NCBI GenBank assembly: GCA_947561715.1
Contig: OX387197.1
Coordinates: forward strand, 9,111,001-9,175,000
Source of the DNA: Ascidia mentula
Taxonomy: Eukaryota; Chordata; Ascidiacea; Phlebobranchia; Ascidiidae
Direction: 5' to 3'
DNA length: 64,000 nucleotides
Shown here: in pieces, positions 5,895 through 64,000 of the stretch
How the letters are laid out: the number at the start of each line of letters is the position of its first letter
Position numbering within the stretch: the stretch's first letter is position 1
The notes under the pieces: generated by a model
Seen by the model: only the letters and a program-made list of their open reading frames with translations
Told to the model about the DNA's origin: nothing
The model's database searches: none
Position numbers and translations under genes: made by a program

Positions 5895-7962
5895 TGTCCC
5901 AATTGATATATCCTTCAGCACATTATATTACCTATCTTGTCAATGCCCTTGGTGCATTTATATTCCACATTTCTCATTCATGTGCAGTTTCTCACATTTC
6001 ACTGTAGGAAACAGAACATTATGTGGTCACGTTAAATTTTTTAATCAGCTACATGTTTTTTTGTGTTAAACTACCACACACGACAATGCATCACAGTGGA
6101 AAATTAACGACACAAGGAGTCTAAATCAAAAAAAGTACAAAACAAAAGCATTATCTTGCTCATTCACTAATTTTGTTTTCCATTTGACACGGTATCACAT
6201 CCAATGACAGCAAGATAAAATTAAAATAAACAAGGCAAGTCAATGATTTTTAAAATCATCAAGTAAAGTACTCTTACTTAAAGCAGTTTTATGCCAAGAT
6301 GATGACAAAGTACATCATGAAATAATGCCGTGCAAGCTATATTTAAAAATCGAACCAAATACAAATATTATAGACCAAAACTCGTCAACATATTTTGACC
6401 GAATTTTGATAAATTTATTGAAGCCAAATCGGGGGTTTACCCTGACTTATACAGGTAAATAAATGAAGATGTGAGATTTCAATACATCGAGCGTGGCAAC
6501 ATGCATGTTTCCATGACCTAGTTCTACAAGATTTCTGTATACGTGAAAACTTTGACCTAAAATGCACATGCGTGTCTATGTGTGTTTGTGTGAACAAAGA
6601 AACCGAAACAAAGAGCTGAGCGATTTTGGCTAATTAAGTTTAATTTATATCTATACGCAATGTCCATATGAACCCGATTGTGTCGAATTTTTAAATTAAA
6701 TAATATGCGCAGGATAAGTTTAACGTCTGTAAGATACTTGTTACTTCTTCTCCGTTCTGTCGAAATACATATACCATACTGTGGCATGAATCCAATTAAA
6801 CACTATTCAGAAAAGAGGAAATTTCTCGGCAAAGTAAACAATACAAAACATATTGCGATCATTTTTATTGCAATAAAGCTGCATTGCTTTGTCACAATGC
6901 CGCGTTTAAAGGCCGGAGACTTAATCAATAGTTTACATTAATGATTCAAAAGGTGGACGTCGAGTTCGTGTGTTTCATATGCCGAGATCCACCGTCATGT
7001 GATAATGCCATTTAATTTTCGAGTCATGCTTGTGGCCTATATGATTTCGTGTTACAGCTAAAGCGGGGCTCTCTTTATATCCGCTTGCAAGAAAAGCGAA
7101 AGAGGTTTTATCCGAATATTCAAGTTTCAGATCAAATCAGAATATTAGCGTCTAGTCGACACAAATTTAAGTGCATGTTTCTAAAGGCGCCGATGCAATT
7201 ATCCAAATTTTTAGCTCATTGTGTTATGATGTGGCTTTGTTGTCCATAAAGTAGTTTGAAAAAAAGCGAGCGTGGATAAATTTGTTATACCCTTATGTAG
7301 GCAACACCTATTGGTATTTTCACACAGGATTTCGCAAGCGCTTGCACACGTCTGTAAATTGCGAACCCTGTGGCATGGGCTTCGCTCATACATACCTGAA
7401 CCAATCGGCTAGGTGCTCAGAAGCGATGAATTATTCAGTTTGTTTCAAAATATCGATTCTTCCCTCCACGGTGTCAGTACGATTTATACCTTGCGCAGCT
7501 CGGAGCTCCGGGTTTGGACTTCGTCCGCATGGGTGAGACAGGTATTTTCGCTTTGCGTTTCCGTGCCGCACGTAGAGTTCGCGCAGAAAACCTTTACCTG
7601 GTTCACATCTTCAGTTTTCAATCAAAATAATCAAGATCAGCCTTCAGAGAGCTGAAGACCTTCTTGGCATGTTTGGAAAACAATATTAGCCTAGACTTAT
7701 AGACATGAAGAGGCGAGATTGACAATTGGGTCTGAGGCATATGAAATGCTGTTGAATCGTAGGATTTATGTCTGTATTTTCCATATGTTGTTTTCTTGGA
7801 ATGTTTAGACATCGAATACTGCGATGATAATATAATACAACATAAAATTTCTTCCATGCAGGATCTTAGGGAAAATGGCATGGTTTGAAATCTTTCAAAG
7901 GCCATAAAATTTTTATGCGGAACAAATGCTGGTGCTGTCTCGTACTCGGACCTAAATAAATT
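5895..7962. other. Intergenic spacer between divergent RIC1 and serine-rich gene
   Basis: About 2.1 kb without a credible coding exon. It separates the RIC1 start codon (minus strand, 5894) from the ATG of the unknown plus-strand gene at 7963, so it must contain both promoters or a shared one, plus both 5' leaders. The left part is AT-rich, and CpG becomes more frequent from about 7300 rightward. No unambiguous TATA box or RNA gene was recognised. Confidence 0.6.
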
Positions 7963-9783
7963 ATGGCGGAAGAAGCACAAAAGACGCAGTACAAAGAGAA
8001 GTGTGCGACAAAAATCAATGAACCTCCCGTTGCGGCCCAGAACGAAACATGCCCCATCGCGTCAGACGGAATGTCGCGCTCATCGCTGACTGTTGACAGC
8101 TGCTGCCGTCATATCGATACTAAAACGGAATCAATGATGTGCAGTGGTTCATCCAGCGACAGGCCCTTGGTGCTTTCCTTAAGCGAGGACGAGCGTTCTT
8201 CAAGCAGAATGTCGTGTATTTCATCGCAAAATAGCCTCGGCAAGCGAGCCGGCATCCATGCGCTGTCCAGCGCTTTTGAACGAGCAAGCAAGATGTCGAT
8301 TTTCAGGTCGAGAATCGCAAGCGAGCACGCGACGAACGGGACATTTGCGGAGAAATTTGTAGCATGGAGAGACAGCGCCACTGGGGCTGTAGATAGCATA
8401 AGAAAGCGTTTGGGGGTCTTCAGGAGGACCCGAAGTCTGGATGGTGAAGGCGAAGAACGGTCGTACATTGCAGGGCGATATCATGAAAGAGCACAGGTTT
8501 TAAACAAAAACAAGAACCTCAAGCAGCCTGTAGCGCAAAATGAGTCATTTAACAACACATCGGATAAAGTTTTTCTTCCTAATAATAGAAATCCGCACGG
8601 AGAGGTCATTTTGGATGTTGAGCGACATTCTCAAAGCGACAAAGGGACGATTAAAAACGGCGACGAACAATCAAGTTTGATATCGAACACTTTCAATGAC
8701 AAACACGTGACTGAAAGTCCAGCGTGCGATCTGCTTGAGGGAAGAACGTATGTTTGTGCAACCTGCGTTCTCCCGCCGTCCGAAGAAAATGGTAGCGCTT
8801 GTGATACTTCGAACCGAAATAATCATGTTGCCGAGTTACAAGGGGTGACGTGCAACAAAACTGACAGTCCAACGGAAGTTCGAATAGTTGAGAAACAACC
8901 GCTGGCTGAAGCAACGCATCTCACGGCCCCGACTGTTGTCCCATTAGAACAAGCAATAAACCCTAACGATTTGACGGTAGAATCACAAAATAACACCGAC
9001 GTTAACAAGATGGCAAGGGATGAAGACAGCCCACCGTCCACCATAACCATGGCGCAAGGTGAGCAACAGGAGGAAGAGGAGGCGTTAATGGAAAACAAGG
9101 GGGTTCCGCGGAAGTGCTTGGGCGGAGTAAACCTGTGGGATTTACGTAATTCATTGGAGCACACCACAATCGAGCTGAAGTACATTAACTACGCGGAGGA
9201 CGACAAGGAAGAAGGAAGAGGGGATGATTTAAAGGCAAGCGTCCGGGATGTGACCGAAGCATCGCCCAGGAGCACCCCAAGTTCGGAGTTCATCATTTCC
9301 CGCGAGAAATCTGTGACGGACTCCGACGACAATGGTGAGTGATTGCGTGAAGGGCTTTTGCATAACTATACACCACTATCCTGATGTCCCACCCAATATA
9401 TTTCGCTGCAAGTAATCTTTTTAAGTGCCTACACATTAAGCTACATCAGGTATTCCCACTCCTGCTACGCACCAGCAGCAGTCGTAATCGGTAAACATGT
9501 TTGCCGTCTGATTTTATTGATCAGGCCCAAATCCGCAAAACCAATTGACCCGCATGCTCCAGTCTCGCAAAGGCCGAATTTAAGGTAAAACAACTGTGCT
9601 TATTTTGCAGGTAATAACCATGCGATCGATGCGGCGGTCGATTCCGCACCATCATATGAATCCTCTCGAAGCTCCGGTGGAGACATTAGACGAAATCGTT
9701 TTTCTGGTGACGACAAAATCGTTACAGCAAATGTGGAAAGCGCACTCGACTTAATCAAGCAGAAAGTATACGATATTCTCTAA
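7963..9783 (+). CDS. Uncharacterised serine-rich acidic protein (two exons visible)
   Basis: I do not recognise this gene. Exon 1 (7963-9334) begins MAEEAQKTQYKEKC and is open for 457 codons. It ends in phase 1 at AATG|GTGAGT. Exon 2 (9611-9783) follows a good acceptor (TTTTGCAG) and restores the frame, giving 514 residues ending QKVYDIL. The protein is rich in Ser, Glu, Asp and Asn, has basic patches (IRKRLGVFRRTRSLDG, about residues 143-158) and an acidic run (EQQEEEEALMENKG), and has no signal peptide or membrane segment. It looks intrinsically disordered, possibly cytoplasmic or nuclear. Alternatively exon 2 stops at 9765 (AAA|GTATAC) and continues in phase into 10175, making one larger gene with the next feature. 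Exon 1 is a confident coding call because of its length and balanced codon use; function is unknown. Confidence 0.75.
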
Positions 9784-48200: not shown

Positions 48201-51200
48201 ATCGTAAGTTTCCTGCAATAAAATCCCCCAAAAGTGCGTGCAATCTTTAATACAAAATATTTTGGCATTGAAACGTCAGAGTGACCGGAAGAAACAGACG
48301 GACGAAACGTCATCGGGTTACGTGTCCGACCATCACCCATTCGAACACCCGGACTTCCCCAACGTCGAACGCTCACTGATCGAAGAAAACGAGACCCCGC
48401 CTTCGCCACGCCCCTCTCCACCTAACCGCCGCTTGCTGAGCTCCGGGACTCTGACGTCATCGTCCAACGCATCAGTTGACACGCTGAAAATCGAAGTTAC
48501 AGAAGCCGCGTTCAAGCGTAAATCCTCCGAGTACTCGCTCAAAACTGAACTATCCGTTACCCCTGGAAACGTAACGAGCGAGTTAGGCAACGTCTCCTCG
48601 TGGAACCGGAATAATTCAGGTCAAGTCGAGTCGGTTATTGTTGAAAATGGCGTCGCGCGTGAGCGAACCACGTCCCGCTTTTACGTGGCGGAAAGCGATT
48701 ACGCAAAACCGGGAGATGGCGACAAAGAGCGCTATAAACGATCTAAGTCGCTTCCCGACGTTTTGGAGGCAGAACTCAGCACCACTGCACTGAGCTCTGG
48801 AGTTAACGAATCTCCATTACCAAAGAAGGACTCAATACAAGACTACATGAAAAACTGCTTAGATGTCAGTGACGACAAACCGACATTACCGCATTCTCAG
48901 TCGGACGGCAACATAAAGAGCAGACAGTACTTGGATTTGCCGTTTCAAAGTCGTAACGCGGACCAGCCAAACAGTGAGGGATACGTGGATTCGGAACTGG
49001 ATCCGGTACCCGACTGCGCTAAAACGAACCCCGACCTCTCGGCCGATATGCCGAAATCTCCGCGACGAGAAAACGAAAAAAGGACATTTGACTGGCGTCG
49101 GTCTAGGGGAAACACCGAAGTTTCGACGGACTCCGGCTTTCGGGCGGACCTCTCATCGGATGGATTGGCGATGTCAGTTACAAAGGATGAGGAGAAAGTT
49201 AAAGTCGGGAGTTCGCTGTGGCATCGCAGTAAACCGGAAGGTCTGGCTGCGGTTAGGATATTTACTCAGCAGTTGATTTCTCCCTCTGCTGAGACGAGGC
49301 GACCGTCGAGTGACCAGTGAGTGAATGCGGTTTGTGTGTTGCATGTTTGATAAAGATTTGCTGATTAGCCATGATCGCTGATTATAATTTTTTCACAAAT
49401 GCCGAATTCCTTTTCCATCATATATTTGTAAACATAACATTCGGGTGGAGAAAGGTTGTAAGAATTTTTTAGATAAACGGAGTCTCAGAAAAGAAATACT
49501 AGACACTTTCAATGTGAAATTTGACCGAAATATGACCACCCTGTAACACAATGTCCAAATATTCGAATCTCCTTCCTGAATTCACGCCTTAATCCGGTCC
49601 AATACAGTGCTGTTCGCAGTATCGTAGACATTAGTCTTTTTTGAACGCAGATCGGAAAGTTCATCGGACGAAATCACGGTGGAGGAACGTGATGACATCA
49701 TCTCCACAACACGGTTTGTTGGTATCGCCGTCCCGGACGATTTATCGTCTATCTTCCAAGTAAGCATGAGTTGATCGTTTTCGAGATATGAAGATAACGA
49801 GCATCTCGTGTTTCTCCATTCTCTTACACATGTTGAATGTACAGCACGGTAGATTGGTGACTATTTTAAGATTTACCAATCACCGCTAAATTTGTTACAT
49901 GGCGAGGTTACATGTGTTACGAGAATTATTTTTCAAAGGCGACACATTTAAGTGTAAACCACCTTGCCTTTGTAAGTTTGTTTTAGATGTAATGTGTGAT
50001 GTATATTGTTGTATCAACCTGATCGGATGTGCCACATTATGATGTAAACCGTTTCCATATTTACAAACTTTAAAAGAAAAGTTTTGTTACTTTAAAGCCA
50101 CTTTACAACGAGAGTGGAAAGGAGCGCGAGACACTGAGCAGTATTTTGTCGACTTGGAAAGATCCTGCAGACGAAGGTAAATTAAACTCTAATATAACAA
50201 TCATGCTCTATTTTACCAGAAACCATTTTAGGGGTTAGTGGGGTCAAATACGTAGTGTTGCACGTAATTCGTATATTTATGTGATGAAATCGGCTTACTC
50301 ACTCAATCATAGGTTTTGCACTTTTTTTTTGGTCTCACAAAAATTTCCCAAACTTTTGAACCAGGCGTCAATATTGCCACCACGTATGTGGCAACCCCGG
50401 ATCCGCCACGAAAAGATTCGACCTGTGTGTTTTCTGCGTACCGCGTTTGTGTTGGATCCGTGTGCTGTGTTCTTAAACCCCCCTCTTTCGCAGAAACGCC
50501 GGCTGAAAAGAATCCTGGCAAGCAGAAGGTGATCGATCTTCTTCAGGGTCGCAAGTTTCGTGGCTTGGACGAATACACGTTCGGTCCGGCGGTGGCTGCG
50601 GCGCTCAAGGCCAATAAACCCGGTCGCAGTCACTCGACCATGAACACTCCGTGTGCTCGGACACCTGACAGCATGCTTAGTGAAGCCAGCGACCTCTGCT
50701 ACCTCGGTAAGATGGCTTGTTTGACTGCCTTCGCTGGGATATGTGTTACGTGAAAATGTTTGCGTGTTATAAAGTGGACAATGCTTTTGAATGAAACACC
50801 TGGGCCATTTCTATGAATTAATATACCCGTCCTTCCTTATGTGGACGTGCGAAGACATCCACGTGACATTGTTAGCTACAATTATTTGTAAAGCTATACA
50901 TAAAGTACATGTGTGTACCTCGTAATACACCCTATTTCAAAGAAAAACTTAAAGGTCTACCATGCACCCCTAACGCACGATATTCTTCTGACCCCAACCT
51001 AAATGTATACTATTGTTTACGGCACATTGCGTTAAAGTGATGATTAGGGAGTGCATGCGACATTACAGTTACAGCCGAAAATTGCCACCCCCGCACAAGC
51101 ACGTGGGTCAGATGCGCCCTAACATACATTTTCAGGTATTGTTAACAAGCTTAGTCGCAATCTTACCTTCCGGCCGAATGTTTGCAATTTTGTGAGTCAC

Positions 51201-53024: not shown

Positions 53025-55841
53025 ACCACCATGAAAGTGTTTCCCCGCTAGAAGCGCAAATCCGACAGGTGGCGCCCGCGAGCCTTGATTTCTCCGGTGA
53101 CATTTTCCTTGATGAACATGAGATCTGCGTTGCCGAGTGTTTTGTTTCCTTTTCCTTTCTTTACCTGTGAGTTTTGTGAGCGCGCTGATCATTTTCGCCT
53201 CGTCGTTTGCTATTACTTCTGTTGTTACACGAACCTCACGCATTCAACCCACACCTCTTTCTACCGCCGATCAAGCCTGGAAAAATCCCAAATGGAAATT
53301 TTTGTCCGGCAAAAGTCATCATGACGCAAGAGAGCTGTTTCCTTGACGTTTCCAGCGTTAAAATAGAGTTTCGACAAGATTTTTTCGTTCTTCGCATCAG
53401 ACTGTGCAATCTTTCCTTCCTTTCTCACGTTCTCTTCGGTTTCCGCACTCCCGCTGCTGCTCCTGCCTCCCGCTCATCCGCTTTGGTCGCGACCACGGCC
53501 TCAACGTGTTGTTTTAATTTAAAACGGAAGCCTCACAGACAAAACCTTATTATTTTGAATACAAATTCCGAGCTTGAACTGCTTTCGTTAGAAGAAAAAT
53601 CAAACTTTTCACGGCGAACTGTTTTCCGTTTTTTTCCTAAGCACGGGAAACGTATGTAGGGAAAGTGTCTTCGCCCTGGTCTAGATTGCCACCTCAGTCC
53701 CAGATGATTGTATTTGTGTGTGGGCGCGTTTTTTATGTCTAATAAATCAACCTTGACAGAAGACTTGTACACATTTTAGCAATCCAAACACACATTTGTG
53801 CTTGGTTGTAAGGTAAGCGGTTCTAATTAAAATTCTCGTTGGCAGAAATACAAAATACTGCTTTGAGACTAAAATTCCGCCAAGCAGGTTGAAAAGGTTC
53901 TCGCAAAAAATGTACAATCCATTAACACAATTAATTTATGATAAGCAATGTGGTAACAATTAATTTATTTCGGCAAACATTTCAAAGGAAAAGGAAGCTT
54001 AATGCATTTTTACTAAGTTAAGTTTCCTTGCTTTATTTAGCCATCTAAACAGTCAAATTGATCTTGGGTGGGGATCCCAAACGATGATACCATTAAGTTT
54101 TCAACAATACGTAACCGTTCAGTGAAATGCTGTTGTTTGATAGTGACTCGAAATGCAAATTTCTTCCCAAATAATTGTTTGCGGTTTAAAATTAAACGAC
54201 TTATACTGGTACCAACGTCTTCGAGCCACTAGCATCTACGGCAAAAAAATTAACAACTACATGTTAATTAGAAAATCGTTGGCGTTGAATCTCAGAAAAA
54301 AGAAAACTAGTAAGATCGATGTGAATGTTGCAAGATTGGAGTGGCCGATTTGATAGGCTTAATTAAATTATTATAGTAGTTCATTTTATGGATTTGTAGA
54401 TAACAATAGCGTTTTTCTGTTCGTAGTGCTGCATACCGATAACTTAACATTTATTCACGCCGTCTGTGTCGAACAGTGGTGTCGCGTGTCGAACACTTAG
54501 AATGGCGAAAAAGGCATAAATCGACACCCTGCTCATGGGTAAAGAGCTCAGCATTTAAACAAACCGGCTCCAGTTTCTCATGCGAGGATCGAAACAACAT
54601 GTTTGCGCATTGTGCCTGCGTCAACTCCGGTCACGGCTGGTCATCGTTCACCGCCGTTCCCGGCGTCACAGATTGGCACCTGTCGGTCCAAACGCCACGT
54701 TAGGGGCCTTTGATTTCGTGCTCCCAAGAAGGAGAAATCGGGCCACAAGAGAAAGCAGCGACAAGCCGACAACGTTAGAGTAAAAACAACACGAATTTAC
54801 TGCTTGCCGCTGGGCAAACAGGCATAACGTAGCGGGCACGAGTAATGGGCTTTTAAACGGGATACCGCAGTTTGTCACCCGCGTCCACGGAGCCAGCGAA
54901 AAGACTCACCCGCTGTCTCATGCTCTGTTGAAAGCCGACCTTCAGAAACCTGTCATGGCCCCGCAGCTCCATTCTCATCTGTCGTCGGAGACCTGGATTC
55001 ACTGATATGGGGTAAGATGCCAAAATCCCGAAGGCAGGTGAATATTACCTAAGTTGGTTTTACTTGTTGCAAAAGCGCTTAAAACGGGGCGACGAGATAC
55101 AGGAAAAGAATACTGTGTTTGTTCAGAACGCCTTGAACTTAATTTGTTTTGTTGAATAAAACATTCGTAAAACTGACCAACTCGTCTGAACGTGTTGATA
55201 AACGTGGAATGTTTTTCCATATTTCTTTTAGGTCTCAGAAAATAATATAGGAAACAAGTTCATTCTGCTCCTCGAAATTTTGTAACGGGGTTAAGGAAAT
55301 GGTGCAGTCACTATATCCACAGATGCTACAAACGGATGGGCTAACAATTAATTTGTTTCACCAACTTCGTCCTCACGAAATCCGAACAAATTAATCGCGT
55401 TTCGCGTTTATTGTTTCTCTTAGTTTTCTATAAGCCTTCCGTGAAAACGTTCGAATCGGTTTCAAAACCGCAACAAAGCAAGCTTCCGCAGAAGCCAACG
55501 CGATACAAATATTAAACACCGCCTTCCTGTTTAGAAAATCTGTGCACATAAAGCGCGCAATTTACGCAATATTTGCTTACTGTCGAGTTCGAAGACGTTC
55601 TCGTTATCGAGATCCGCGCGCGCACTTTACGCTTTCCTCCTTTTTTTCTTTTCTTGACGTTCAGATATAAGCACGAATCAGCGTCTGGCCTCCAGTACCA
55701 GTAGCGATCAGCCAGAGAGGAGTGTGTAAAGGCGATCAAACCAGACTAATCAATTAAAGAGTCCTTACAGTTAAGCCGTAATTTGAAAAGTTCGATCTTT
55801 GTACAAGATTTGAAATCAAGTCAAAGGATATATTCGAAAAA
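53025..55841. other. RICTOR 3' UTR and spacer to the TIKI gene
   Basis: About 2.8 kb without a supported exon. The left third probably is RICTOR 3' UTR. The remainder must contain the promoter and leader of the TIKI gene. No RNA gene or mobile-element coding sequence was recognised. Confidence 0.5.
53741..53746 (+). terminator. Candidate RICTOR poly(A) signal
   Basis: AATAAA about 717 bp after the RICTOR stop codon (53022-53024) is the first canonical hexamer I noticed in the downstream sequence. Confidence 0.4.
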
Positions 55842-58425
55842 ATGTTACGTATTTTGTTTGGATTTTTGCTGGCGACATTTCTCGGGTCCACCGTCGCCAA
55901 ACATGGCCAGCCGTGCGCCAACGAGGTAAGGAGATAGTTAATTTGTTTGCTTTCAGTGGCTACGACGGACTTAAATGTTATTATCCCCGACAAAACCTGC
56001 CGAAATTCTCCTAAAGAAGACGGCAATCAACGGCTTTGGGCGATCTTAGTGGGTCTGCTCTGCCTGAACGAAATGTCACCGATCAAAGAATTTTAATATT
56101 TAAACGTGAGGTAGCACTGTTGTTTGTAAGGGTCAGGAACCCGAGGCCGGCATGGCGTTTGTGGGGGTCGCCAACTTGCATCTGGATAAAGGGATTAACT
56201 TTGCAGGTCACTGCGTCCATTACCCGCGCGCAAAGTTGTCGGCTTGGCCACGGGTGCTTTGGCGATTAACCCATTTCTTGACCAAAATCCACGTTCGATC
56301 TGTTTGTCGCCCTGGGAAACAGGAAACGAACCTTGTCGGTCAAATTATCCAGTTCGTTACTCGCAATGAGCGAAGACTTATGCCGCCTTTTCCCCCCAGG
56401 GCCGCCGTAATTCGTTCCTGTGGAAAATCAAGAGAAACCCGCCAGCCTACTTCTTCGGCACCATACACGTTCCCTACACACGAGTGTGGAGTCACATTCC
56501 AAGTTTTTCAAAGGTAATATGCAACAACGAATGAATGGAAGTGTGTTTTGGTTTTCATGGCGTTGGATCACTCCATCGAATTTTTGGCATACTGCCGCAT
56601 CACGGAAAAGCTCAAGTCCGAAACTACAGGACTACAGCGTTCCGACAATTTACGCCGCACCACAAATTAAATCCAATTAACGTGGCTGCTCAGCGCGTAA
56701 TTTCACCTCGGCGCTGACGAATCAAGAGCGCGACTCGCAATTTTGTCGCTTGTCCTGGAGTTAGGAAGCAAAATGTAAAACCCCGCTTCTCGTGTGTGCG
56801 CAGAGGGCCTTCCGCAGCAGCGACAACGTCTTCTTCGAATTGGATCTCACCAATGCGGATACGCGCGCATCTCTCACGCGATGCCAGATGCTGCCGGGCG
56901 GCACAGACCTGCGCGAAATTCTTCCGTCGGATCTGTACAGGCGCCTCAAAAGTCATCTGGACTATGTTCGACGCGCCATGCCCGGCTGGCTAACCTCGGA
57001 GCAAGAAGGAAAAGGTGAAGGAAGTTTTGAATTAGTCGCCCACCCAAATACTCTGGCACGCTGGCTGAAATTCTTTCAGCGCGTTCCGGCGTCTGTGTAT
57101 AATGTTACTACACGTATACTCATTCTCGCGCCCTGTCCCAACACAATCCCGCTTGTAGAGCAAATGATTATCAAGACTGGCATGCCGGTCTATGTGAACC
57201 GTGTCTCCGGAAATATCGAGTTTGTTCACGTGGATAACTCCCCTCCATTTTTAGGATGGTATGGCGACGCTCTGTTCGAGGCAATCGCCGGCAACTGGGA
57301 GCGCAAGAGGCCGGTGTGGGTCATGCTGATGGTGAACTCCCTCACGGAGGCTGACATTCGCACACAAGGAATTCCAGTCCTCGACCTGCATCTCGCGCAC
57401 AAGGCGGTGGAACTTGGCAAGCACGTGGGAGCCGTTGAGGAGGTCGACGAACAGTGCAAACCGCTTAACGGGCTCAACATGTCACAGGTTAGTCCCAAAA
57501 CATGACAAATCACATTCTTCGACATGTTCTTCTTTAAAAACGAGAAATTTCGTTGTTTGCGGTTTCCTATGATTTCCAGCCTTTGGTTCACTTTTAGTGT
57601 TGTTACTGTGAATTAAAATTCGCCGAAAAAAACAAATCTCCTGATTTAGGTGCTGTACGCTTTGAACTACACGCTATTGATGCAAGAGCGCATGCGGTTC
57701 GGGGCAGCGGCGGCTCCCTATACCACAGACGACCTCATCCAGCAATACAACTGCGGTGATCTCAATTCCTCCATCTTCGACAGCGATTCGTCGCAGGTAC
57801 ATGAGCGGCCGGCAGCGGACAAAACTGTTACTTGACCGTCGTTAATCACACCTTGTACGTGGGCAAATGTCCGCAGTTTAGGGTGGGCGCAGTTCAAGCG
57901 TTTGTCGTTCAAAATTCTTTCCTGCCGACGAGGTTGTGCACCTTTTCTCATTGTGCTGATTCTTACCAATTTTGATTTCTTGCAACGCACTAATTACATT
58001 ACTCAGCTGTTTTACCAATTTGAATAAAATGTCTGGCCGTATAAAATATGGTAATATACAATTGTTAACAGCGTGAGTTGCCATATATGTGACATAGTGC
58101 TTCAATTTTCATTCCTCTAACTGTGGTAATTTCATTATTTTTTTTATCATATTCAAGGTAATTTACATAAATATGAACATTTCTCCCGTGGATTCCTAAC
58201 GGCGCTATTCAAAGTAGTGTAATATTATTATAACCTTGTAGTTTCCTAAATTGACGAACGACACGGACCTCGGCGACAACGAGAAGGGCAGGGAAATGGC
58301 AAACAACGTGGATTATTACTTCAGAAAAGAGCTCATATATCGTAGAAACGAGCGCATGGCGCATCGAGTCAAGTCCCTTTTACAAAAACACTCAGACGAG
58401 AGCTTTTTCTTTGCGTTCGGGGCAG
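55842..58425 (+). CDS. TRABD2: TIKI/TRABD2 family Wnt-cleaving metalloprotease, 5' part (3' exon(s) not found)
   Basis: TIKI proteins are membrane-tethered metalloproteases that trim the Wnt N-terminus and inhibit Wnt signalling. Six exons were placed: 55842-55925, 56400-56513, 56804-57014, 57255-57487, 57650-57796 and 58242-58425. They are phase-consistent and give about 324 codons. Exon 1 encodes a start and hydrophobic signal peptide ([19 protein letters not shown]). Matches to human [24 protein letters not shown], containing the first GX2H metal-binding motif (GTIH, about residues 48-51); [70 protein letters not shown]; and [14 protein letters not shown]. Exon 6 ends in phase 1 within FFFAFGA|G, just before the expected second GX2H histidine. 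That exon and the C-terminal membrane anchor are either beyond the right edge or unrecognised. The 240-bp intron 57015-57254 is open in frame. Confidence 0.92.
57015..57254 (+). other. Stopless in-frame intron (or retained 80-codon insert) of the TIKI gene
   Basis: The segment begins GTGAAG and ends TTTTTAG, is exactly 240 bp, and reads through without a stop in the exon frame. Splicing it out restores the family sequence [17 protein letters not shown] (human GKGLYADYLFNAIAGNW), which strongly supports an intron. Its base composition looks closer to coding sequence than the T-rich introns nearby. Retention would insert 80 residues in the protease domain. Confidence 0.75.
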
Positions 58426-61400
58426 GTAAGCATCATAGCAACTCGTAATGCATGCACCAGCGTTTATTAGCCGATGCTAATTTTCGTTTAGTTTTCCAAT
58501 CAACTGTGTTGCCGGAGCAGGCGCTTACGCTTTTTGGCAGGCTCTGTACTCTGTAATCAAATTTTACGCCCGGTCAGACGGTCCCCTTGCTTCAAGCCGA
58601 CACAACATACCTCAGTGCTTCCGTATGTTGCGGCGGGCCGCGAGTGTGTGTTTGTTGCTGGCGAACACATATTATTGTCTGCCCGAGTGGGGTTTTCAGT
58701 TTCTCGCACAGACCACTTTCGCTTACCCAGCGCGTGCCGCTAATCAGCAATACGTCATTTCTGAGGAAATTTCACTGAAAGAAGAACGATTGTTGACGTT
58801 TTCTGGCGCCGCGCTAAACGCAAACGCATCAACGATATCGAAGCTCTGGTGAGCCTCTGGCGGGAACCTGGTGCCAAATTTCGCGTGTGAATGAACCGTA
58901 GGAAACCGATGCCTGAGACCCCGGGTCGCGACTGAAGAGTTTCATTGGCCGCCGGGTCCCGAGGTTGTTGTTCCCCATTTGGATCCCAGGACACGTATGT
59001 TGTGGGTGCAACTTTGTCTACGCGGCAATCGGCGATTTTGGCTATAAATAATTTGAAAGATTAGAGCACGGGCAAGGTCGCCGCGACTAGTTTTGCCTGC
59101 GCGCCTCCATCCATTGTCCCGTGTTGTCGTTTGGCGTCGAGGGCCAACCATTCAGGGTTCACCTTTCGCCGTGGGAGAACAACCTATAGGCATGCGCAAT
59201 GGGCCTACCGAAGCAACAAAGCTCGTGGCATTCGCAAACTTGTTTTCCGATCAAACCTTAATCTTGCTGAGTCTTTGTAGAGCCTCTTATCTGCTGGTTT
59301 GCGATGTTTGATTGGGGACATGAGGTTGATTCGATAAAGGTCGGGTGGCATTCGTAATTCGCGCAGTAGCTATTATGGGCCCTCAACCTCCGGGATCAGT
59401 TCCACAGTAAATATTTGCGAGCTCTTTCATTTGGACTGGGGCGCTCAATCTTACACAAGGGCGGCCGGGCGGTAAATCTTAGGCCGCGGTCAACGACGAG
59501 AAAAAGGATTACATGGGTGAACGCTTAGGTGTTGGAACGGGCGCGGTGGCAAGTACGGTTTATTAACCTCTCCCGATAGTTGTCGTTTTGTCCATCACTG
59601 GAATTTCGGGTCTTGGGCATTCACTGCTCATCGGTCGTGCTGTATTTTTTCCCCAAAATTTAGTTTATCTGGTTGGTGGCAGTTAGACAGGCCTAGTGCG
59701 ATAACGCACATGACAAAGAAACGTTTGCAGTATGGTCTTGCATGCCTGCGCGAAATCGTACGCGTCAAACACTTACTAATTACAGAAATGTTGATCGATC
59801 CACGCAGGTTGCGGGAGGAAAGACCTTCCGAGCCGATTTGTGGTTGAGAGATTGGTTTGATAATCGCTTTGATGAGGCCGATAAGCACGATATTATCGCC
59901 GAGGCTCAGAAAAATGTCAATAACGGTTGCTATTCCAAGCGGGCAGCGAGAGGCCACGTGGCGATGGGGGCGTGTGGGCCACAATGCCATCAATCTTCCG
60001 CCGATTCCATATCAGTCTTCGATGCTGCGTCAATTGCGCTTATTCCAGTCCATGATCGCATATAGCTGTCAGTGGGGCTTTGTGCCACCATGTTTTCCTT
60101 TGTTGAGAATGCTGGTTTTGCTTAAGTCGACCTGGGTGGCGAAATAAACATAAGCATCTCGCTTAAGCCGATTTCCTGGCGGTGATAAGACGACGTGGTC
60201 ATATGTATTGTTGCTGTGTTTTGAACGCTCGGTGCTGCTTGAGGGCGTCCATCATTGTTCGCTTTACTGTAAACGTATTTGTTCTGTTCCCTTATAAAGC
60301 CGTGGGCTCAGTTGAAATATTTCACCCGCTTCTGCAGTTTAGACATCAAAGCAGGCGAAGCGTCCCGCGCACGCAGTGGATTAACTTTCTGTTCAAACGT
60401 ACCCTTTTCAACCCCCTTTCGTTTAAGCCCCACTCCATCCCCATGGCGCTTGACACGCGCACGTCAATTTTCATGTTTTCGCCCAAACCGATTTCACCGC
60501 ACATTGCGGCTTCAGTTTCCGTCAGCTCTCTCAACGTAAAACGCTGGCATCGAGTTCTGTCTCCGCGTTCCACAGTTCTTCGATTACTGCTCGGCCGGTT
60601 TCGCTGGCACGTATAACTGGTATCTTTGCTGCGAGTAATTAGCGGTCCAACAAAGGGAGTGCTGTTCATCCGTTTTGTGAGAAACGACAACGAGAGTGTT
60701 TTGCGCGAATGAAAATTGCAGCTGACTTGTCCCATGCTTGTCATTTACCTCCGTGCGAATGTTCGCCAATTACTGACGATTCGGTTAATGAATTCCTCCC
60801 GTTCTTGCCCTGAGGATATCCGATGTTTATTTGAAAACTGTCACGCGATGGTTTAGCGGATTCCAACAGTGGCTCTTCATCTGTGACGCAACGTAAGCAA
60901 CTTAAACTTGGTTTGGCAATGTTGTCCGAAAACAGGGGAAAACGTAATTAAAAACTGCATATGTCTCAAATAGTTTAAAGGCAAAACATCTAATCATCTT
61001 TGTCCATTTCAAATTCCGTTGTTTATGTGTAGATAACACTGCAATGAGCGGCAGTGTATAGAGAATAAGTTTTTCATTTTTTATATTGCGAGGACAAATA
61101 TACCCCGCCATTTTTAACAGCCTAAAGGGTTGTTTTCAACAGTAAGTGCACGTTAATTCCAGTATAGCTCAAAGGTCGCTTGCGAATTGCGAAATCTCGC
61201 ATTGCCAACCGTGTGGTTCCGCGACAAAACAACAACACAACACGACGGCGCCGTAACTTAAATTTATGAGTCGCTCTCCTGATCGGCTGTGTTTGTCCAA
61301 GGTGTCGTGGAACAACGAATCTAGTTCTCAATGGCTTCTGTCGTCACCTCGCGGTTTACCAAGTCATCGGGATAGCGATCTTTATCGGCGGTACCGCGTT

Positions 61401-64000
61401 GCGTCTGATCTGGCGAACAAATAGCGGGTGGCGGACGTATCGGTTGCCACCATAATCCCGATAAAACTTGAGCAAGTTTGCAAACCGATTTACGGAACAT
61501 ATGAAGCTCCTGACCTTTGTGCCACCCGCACTTGACACAATAAGATACACTTGTTGCGACAACGAACAATGTTGGCATATGTGTAGAGTTGTTGGTTTAT
61601 ATTACAAAAAAATAAACGTTTTTTTTTCAGTGAAGGTGTTTTTACAAATGAGCAAACGAAAATTTAAGTGTTAACGACCAAATACTTTAAACCCTAACTG
61701 ATATGTCTTAACTATTTGTCAAGTCTTTGAGATGAGGTCAATTCAAAAATTCCACATCAAGCCTTTCTCCAGAGTACAAAGCGTTCTTTCAACAGTTTGA
61801 TGTTGACAATTAGCGTAACCCCGACCAAATACGCCTTGAGACGTCTGAATGAAAGCTCCGCGAATCACTGTTCTCGTACGTGCAATTAAGGCGCGCAATA
61901 TTTGTGTATGTTTTGCTAGATTAGAACGGTCTCACAGATTCCACGCAGTGCTTACGATACCAGTTACACGTAACGAACATTTTTTCATTTTGCGGCAACA
62001 GCGATTGATCTTTTATTGGACATAGTCAGACGTGAGAAAACAACCTCACGGCATTCTGGAAATTTTTCCCGCTTGATATCCACGATATCGCCAGTTCGAG
62101 GCGTTTTACTACAGTGCGATGTCTCGCGTCACGCCAATGACAGCAAGTGCGGCCTTGGCAACGGCTAATTTTATAATTATGAGGCGTGGTCTCGACGTGG
62201 CAATATCATAAAGTGGTAGCGCCAGTACCACGCGTCTGTGATACAAATATCGCGACAGCGGGGTGTGATAATTTCCCACGCCTAACGCTATACCGGCATT
62301 TTGGGTACTGACATAGCATCTCACACTTCACGCAGCCGTACCCTGTACAGGTGGCTTTGTCGAGATTCGCACGCGATTTCGGGCGCGTCGCAGATGTGAG
62401 TTATCCTGCAACTGGTTTCTTCCACAAACACGGTGCGTTGAGTTTTAAAGTGACCGACGGAAGGGTAAACGAAATGTTAGCACTGCTTTTCCACGAAGTT
62501 ATGTTGTTGTGATGTGACGAGAGCTGAAAGACATTTTATCCGCCTGCGCGTCGCCCGCACTTCGCCTCGCAACTCACCCGCGTCGCTTTTATCTGGATCG
62601 CATCTTGACGATTAGCCTGTGCCCATATTAGTCAACGACGTGTTGCCGTTTCGCGGAGCTGCTGTACACCGTGACGTCATCGGCTAGGGCCATGTGTTTG
62701 AAAACAAACGGTTCATGCGGTTTGTTATCGAGCGATATAGCTCAAACCCGCGGATTTGCGTCAGAAACGTCGTCGGTTGGGATTTTACACCTTGATTCGG
62801 ATGCGATTCCAACCTCACGCGTTGATCACGACTTAACGAGCGACTCGCGTGCTTTATTCTGCGGAATCGATGTGAAACTGAGGTTCAACCTGTCGATCGG
62901 TGTTGAACGTTTCCCGCTGTGCGTGCTTGTGGGCTTGCCTCAGACCCCAATGCTATTTTCGTCTGTTTGCGCGGGTGTCGTCCTAATACCCACACTACTT
63001 ACTTTTCCTCACAGGCGCAAAGTTCTCGGCACCGATGTGTTTTCCACGGTATGTAAGGACAAAAGGACAGACGTCGTGTGACGTATGTTCTCGTATTTGC
63101 GTTACGGCGAGCGGACCCGCCTCCAGAATACGTTATACATCATCAGGCTCCTATTGTGTCTTGACCCCGTAAAGAGAAATTGTCCTTGTACCAACAGCTG
63201 AACTTGTATGGGTGGCGGCTTATGTCAGGAATCGCGTTTATTCCGCCTGGCGCGAATCCGACTTTGTCCTTTGATTGGAGCGAAGCCTAATGAGACGGAA
63301 ACCGTGAAAAATTCGTTCGCCAAAGACGGTCAAAGGGGGGTCGCGAATCAGGAGCCGAAGCGACAATGATCAATTACTCGCAGCCGCAGTGACAGATGTT
63401 GGGCGTTTATTTACAAACATTTTGGCGAACTGCGTCCCCTGGAGAGTTCCTGGCGCCGTTTTCAAGGAAACTTGACGTTTTGGTAAACTTGAAATAACCT
63501 CTGGCGGCGGCAACGCGCGTAAACAATGACCACCCGTGTTTATTCGTTTGGTAAACGGCAACCCGGCAACGCGACAGAAAGCCGCTTGTGGTGGAGTTTT
63601 AAACGGAATTCCAACACGGGTTCTAACTGTGGGATTTTGACTGATGATGTACCAAGTATTTTTTCTCTTTAAATGTAGGCCGATCCTCGCACTGCCCCCT
63701 TAAACAACTGTGTCAGTTATAATACGAGAAGCATCTCGCCAATTAATCTTATTTCCAAATGCGAAAAAGGGTGTGTTTTGTATGTAGCACTAAAACGGTC
63801 TGTCCATGTATAAGTTGACAAATCGCCTGTCAGTGAATAGAAAACCAGGGCCCTGTTAATCAAACAGCCCGCAGCTTGTAACACAGGCGCCAATTGTGCT
63901 TTTGATTTTGCACAAGAAAGCCCTGTCCGACAGGGGACGGGTGGCGACTAACAGCGCAGTAGAGCACAAGCCACAATTTAATGCATTACGGCTAAACAAC
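58426..64000. other. GC-richer non-coding stretch after TIKI exon 6, probably a long intron
   Basis: About 5.6 kb, richer in G+C and CpG than the left half of the window, with only short frames that resemble nothing known. Because the TIKI reading frame is unfinished at 58425, this is best read as a large intron, possibly with enhancers. The missing exon should encode a GHF-type motif; I could not find a credible one. Confidence 0.45.

Follow-up and report, generated by a model that had tools for sequence, protein, structure and literature searches.

If an intron has a length divisible by three and no stop codon in the exon frame, is it an ordinary intron, or can it be kept in the message as an additional coding segment? 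This question is raised by a predicted protease gene of the TIKI type in the ascidian Ascidia mentula. The gene lies in a window of 64,000 nucleotides (GenBank assembly GCA_947561715.1, contig OX387197.1, positions 9,111,001 to 9,175,000 of the forward strand), which is the whole stretch of DNA that was analysed; positions in and around the gene are counted from its first letter. A first-pass annotation had placed a stop-free intron of 240 bp, a multiple of three, at 57015-57254, and both the coordinates and these properties held. Intron 3, as we refer to it here, begins with GT, ends with AG and interrupts the reading frame in phase 1. Its exon frame contains no stop in 80 codons, whereas the two remaining sense frames have six and four. 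A continuous open frame of 246 codons (56765-57505) runs through exon 3, intron 3 and exon 4.

We built the gene model by hand and checked it by translation. On the plus strand, exon 1 (55842-55925) contains the start codon, ends at the donor GAG/gtaagg and encodes a hydrophobic N terminus that, judged by eye, resembles a signal peptide. It is followed by exon 2 (56400-56513), exon 3 (56804-57014), exon 4 (57255-57487), exon 5 (57650-57796) and exon 6 (58242-58425). Exon 3 terminates in phase 1 with the residues EQEGKG and exon 6, also in phase 1, with the residues FAFGA. The next exon, encoding GHFLGNGSVLDFLRKDGFEIEH, is located past the end of the window, about 7.4 kb downstream. The other introns that the gene has in the window measure 162-474 bp, and intron 3, with its 240 bp, is within these limits. 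The encoded protein belongs to PF01963 (TraB/PrgY/gumN; TraB_PrgY_gumN), which we take to be the family that holds TIKI, and we use the name TIKI on this assumption. Vertebrate TIKI proteins are Wnt proteases, which cleave Wnt in a metal-dependent manner. Matches to PF01963 (E ≤ 0.001) occurred at three places in the genome (195.8 Mb, 79 contigs), all of which are exons of one gene. Thus, one gene of the TIKI/TraB family was detected by this search, which ran exon by exon and could miss a gene made up of short exons.

We then compared the protein with and without intron 3. The spliced product (352 residues as far as modelled) gave a single PF01963 match of 174.1 bits that spans profile positions 1-262 of 263 and hence the whole domain, well over the curated cut-off of 26.8 bits. 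In this arrangement, exon 3 contributes profile positions 33/34-92 and exon 4 those from position 97 on. When intron 3 was retained, the match was split into two stretches totalling 169 bits, as the translated intron would be inserted between positions 92 and 97. Since one uninterrupted stretch is obtained from the spliced product and two from the retained one, the spliced form is the one that corresponds to the family protein, and no difference between it and the TraB_PrgY_gumN family was noticed. The claim that excision restores a conserved block was thereby borne out: removal of intron 3 leaves the PF01963 match unbroken, and the GKGxYxDxLF block, which presumably resembles the vertebrate TIKI sequences, is present.

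To judge the splice signals and the frequency of open introns, we used introns that were predicted by spliced protein alignment in myosin loci of the same genome. Of 20 fetched loci 15 were kept; L036, L037 and L039 were dropped as near-duplicates of L038 by their intron lengths, as were L052 and L053 as near-duplicates of L055. One of the kept loci has no introns, and the other 14 provided 169 introns, 168 of them distinct, as a 542-bp intron was counted twice where L047 and L048 overlap, which also doubled some codons. Within this set of 169 predicted introns, the donor of intron 3 (AAG/gtgaag) ranked at the 59th percentile, and its acceptor, taactcccctccatttttag, on the weak side at the 11th percentile. 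A scan of 56810-57489 revealed that the donor of exon 4 itself is the only one to outscore the donor at 57015. Two AG sites scored higher than the acceptor at 57254 (4.57), namely 56940 (5.6), which is situated within exon 3, and 57079 (4.82). The latter was rejected as a partner for the donor at 57015: the resulting 65-bp intron would shift the frame, and the conserved protein would be lost. The earlier claim that the segment is normally spliced out is supported by the continuity of the domain and by splice signals that are not outside what the predicted introns of this genome show. From its sequence, intron 3 is very probably removed from the transcript, and we infer that splicing in the animal is near-complete.

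How unusual is it for such an intron to be open? In local non-coding DNA (54500-64000, exons excluded), 275 of 6416 overlapping frames (4.3%) in 240-bp windows with a GC content of 0.44-0.51 were free of stops. Combined with a chance of one third for a length divisible by three, this amounts to about 1-1.4% for each intron of the size and composition of intron 3. A first-order model of each intron correspondingly gave 1.0% for intron 3 and a total of 4.3% for the five introns contained completely in the window. Of the introns predicted in the myosin loci (169), 51 have a length divisible by three, four are stop-free and one is both. Introns that combine the two properties are therefore uncommon in this genome. 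None of the 107 myosin introns of at least 200 bp was stop-free, and the four stop-free cases are fewer than the 8.3 expected by simulation. Nevertheless, many such cases would be expected in a genome this large, given many thousands of introns. As its state lies within these chance rates, the open frame of intron 3 is hardly surprising. This calls for some caution in GC-rich stretches, where stop-free introns with a length divisible by three are to be expected by chance (at about 1% when matched for size and composition); the openness of an intron alone is no evidence of an isoform.

The base composition of the segment had previously been described as coding-like, a view that our data did not sustain. 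The GC content of intron 3 (0.475) equals that of introns 1 and 2 (0.483 and 0.476) and of the local non-coding DNA (0.478; introns 1 and 2 plus 58600-63900), and is higher than that of introns 4 and 5 (0.346 and 0.38). It also lies above that of each of the 169 myosin introns, none of which reaches 0.475; these are low in GC (mean 0.33) and hence not matched in composition to the TIKI gene. The non-coding DNA around the gene (54000-64000) is generally GC-rich, with introns 4 and 5 as exceptions. By codon position, the GC content of intron 3 is 0.55/0.39/0.49, with positions 1 and 2 ordered as in coding sequence. At the third position, however, G or C occurs in 39 of 80 codons of intron 3. The TIKI exons have it in 221 of 324 codons (Fisher's test, p = 0.0017), and exons 3 and 4, which flank the intron, in 105 of 148 (p = 0.0015). 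The segment thus differs from the exons at this position, and its codon score falls into the non-coding range, as detailed below.

For codon scoring, we trained a coding model on TIKI, putatively coding open reading frames of the window (8 of the 24 listed, picked by eye) and a myosin codon sample. The exon frame of intron 3 scored -0.086 bits per codon. All 40 held-out coding windows (overlapping, 80 codons each, taken from the eight open reading frames and TIKI) were above this value, ranging from -0.067 to 0.281. In comparison, 33 of 68 local non-coding stop-free frames (real, overlapping and of equal length) scored at least as high as intron 3, with the reservation that these frames were drawn largely from the stretch on which this first background was trained. 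When introns 4 and 5 and flanking sequence were added to the background, none of the 40 coding windows fell below intron 3, and 31 of the 68 non-coding frames equalled or exceeded its score. The corresponding numbers were 0/40 and 45/68 with only the gene's other introns as background, and 2/40 and 51/68 with the myosin introns, so that intron 3 ranked below every held-out coding window under three of the four backgrounds. Against simulated stop-free non-coding sequence, its score gave p values of 0.14 to 0.63 across four coding models and three backgrounds; an earlier simulation with two models had given 0.13 and 0.10. For short pieces the codon test is not sharp, since under some models intron 3 scored like real exons. 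With a myosin-only model, its score of -0.138 was close to that of exon 3 (-0.133) and higher than those of exons 1 and 2 (-0.202 and -0.161); with a mixed model, it reached -0.078, close to exon 2 (-0.079) and above exon 1 (-0.14). The antisense frames of intron 3 scored about like the sense frame. At a length of 80 codons, at which the power of the test is limited, the exon frame of intron 3 carries no detectable coding signal.

Database searches gave no convincing relative of the putative peptide. The translation of intron 3 had no match in Pfam or NCBIfam, and its one match among PDB sequences (E = 0.89) was judged to be due to chance. When the genome was searched with a 271-bp DNA query for intron 3 and with its peptide, both found their own locus only and no second copy. 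An origin of the segment from another gene or a repeat was rejected on the basis of this single genomic match together with the lack of a Pfam or NCBIfam relative and the chance-level PDB match. The spliced TIKI protein likewise had no convincing relative in the PDB (one match, E = 0.91). A search for prokaryotic TIKI relatives, which might have revealed whether insertions are tolerated at the position of intron 3, gave 37 pattern matches, none of which was confirmed. Among the literature matches listed, the titles and abstract openings contained no report of an ascidian TIKI intron, which does not prove that none exists.

We conclude, with a probability of roughly 0.92, that 57015-57254 is an ordinary spliceosomal intron of the TIKI/TraB gene, intron 3 in phase 1, that is open by chance. 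The spliceosome would remove it via its canonical GT and AG ends and so unite both halves of the protease domain. Its stop-free frame and its length divisible by three would be a coincidence. In a GC-rich neighbourhood such as this one (about 48% GC), stop codons are less frequent, and such a coincidence is accordingly less rare. The closest known counterparts are ordinary spliceosomal introns that are stop-free and divisible by three. Intron 3 is like them in its GT and AG ends, its polypyrimidine-containing acceptor, its non-coding composition and its length, and we found no difference from ordinary introns beyond the coincidence of frame and length.

The first-pass annotation had raised the possibility of a regulated exitron-type isoform. 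In such an isoform, intron 3 would stay in some of the transcripts and insert 80 residues into the protease domain, and the protein would be altered or inactive. As described by Marquez et al. (2015, PMC4484396), exitrons form protein-coding portions of annotated exons, and their unspliced form is the major one; human introns that are divisible by three and lack stops are cited there as counter-selected. Intron 3 shares with the exitrons described there a stop-free sequence, a length divisible by three, canonical splice signals and a rather weak acceptor, being weaker than most in our set, and its phase is compatible with retention. According to the same text, exitrons range above introns and below exons in GC content; the GC content of intron 3 lies between that of the exons of its gene and that of introns 4 and 5, which are AT-rich, and is no higher than that of introns 1 and 2 or of the local non-coding DNA, so that this comparison points in both directions. 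Intron 3 departs from the exitrons of that text in that its splicing yields the conserved protein and its sequence does not look coding, as far as 80 codons with their limited power can tell. Moreover, retention would split the conserved domain. Given the undetectable coding signal, the lack of a convincing peptide relative and an open frame within chance rates, we consider a regulated exitron very unlikely. The same holds for its possible function: it is hardly to be expected that conditional retention of intron 3 yields a TIKI isoform that is longer by 80 residues in the protease domain, is possibly inactive or dominant, and tunes Wnt inactivation. If retention were real, an enzyme that inactivates Wnt would be subject to a splice switch.

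We regard it as even less probable that intron 3 arose by recent intronization of a lineage-specific coding insert, or that it is an unspliced ordinary coding insertion. Both would account for the open frame that continues from exon 3 through to exon 4, but the codon usage of the segment is unlike that of the flanking exons, its score is non-coding-like, domain continuity returns upon its removal, and the genome holds no second copy that our search could find. A coding insertion was rejected based on the codon scores and the third-position GC content. Similarly slim is the chance that intron 3 harbours another intron-borne element, such as a small RNA or a nested antisense frame at 57032-57250. 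An antisense frame of 72 open codons is indeed present, and the similar scores of antisense and sense frames would agree with such an element. However, no antisense frame scored positive, and the best of them (-0.067) remained below the medians of both the TIKI and the myosin coding windows.

Beyond the TIKI gene and its intron 3, several further observations were made. Elsewhere in the window, two long open frames at 7960-9342 and 48208-49320 (460 and 370 codons) encode serine-rich proteins that, by eye, are probably disordered. Among the myosin loci, L006 and L054 (C2:6913118-6915283) represent a myosin head of full profile length (positions 2-678 of 679) in a single, intronless open frame. 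The other myosin genes sampled bear introns; this one is perhaps a retrocopy. The four genes L036-L039 (C67 near 2.35 and 2.36 Mb, C69 near 1.16 Mb) appear to be very similar, as judged from alignment scores and intron lengths alone, and the matches of the two genes on C69 are separated by about 3.6 kb and oppositely oriented. Finally, L052, L053 and L055 on C70 (at 20.64, 3.61 and 19.82 Mb) are similar myosin-head copies with introns of nearly equal length, which suggests a recent duplication.
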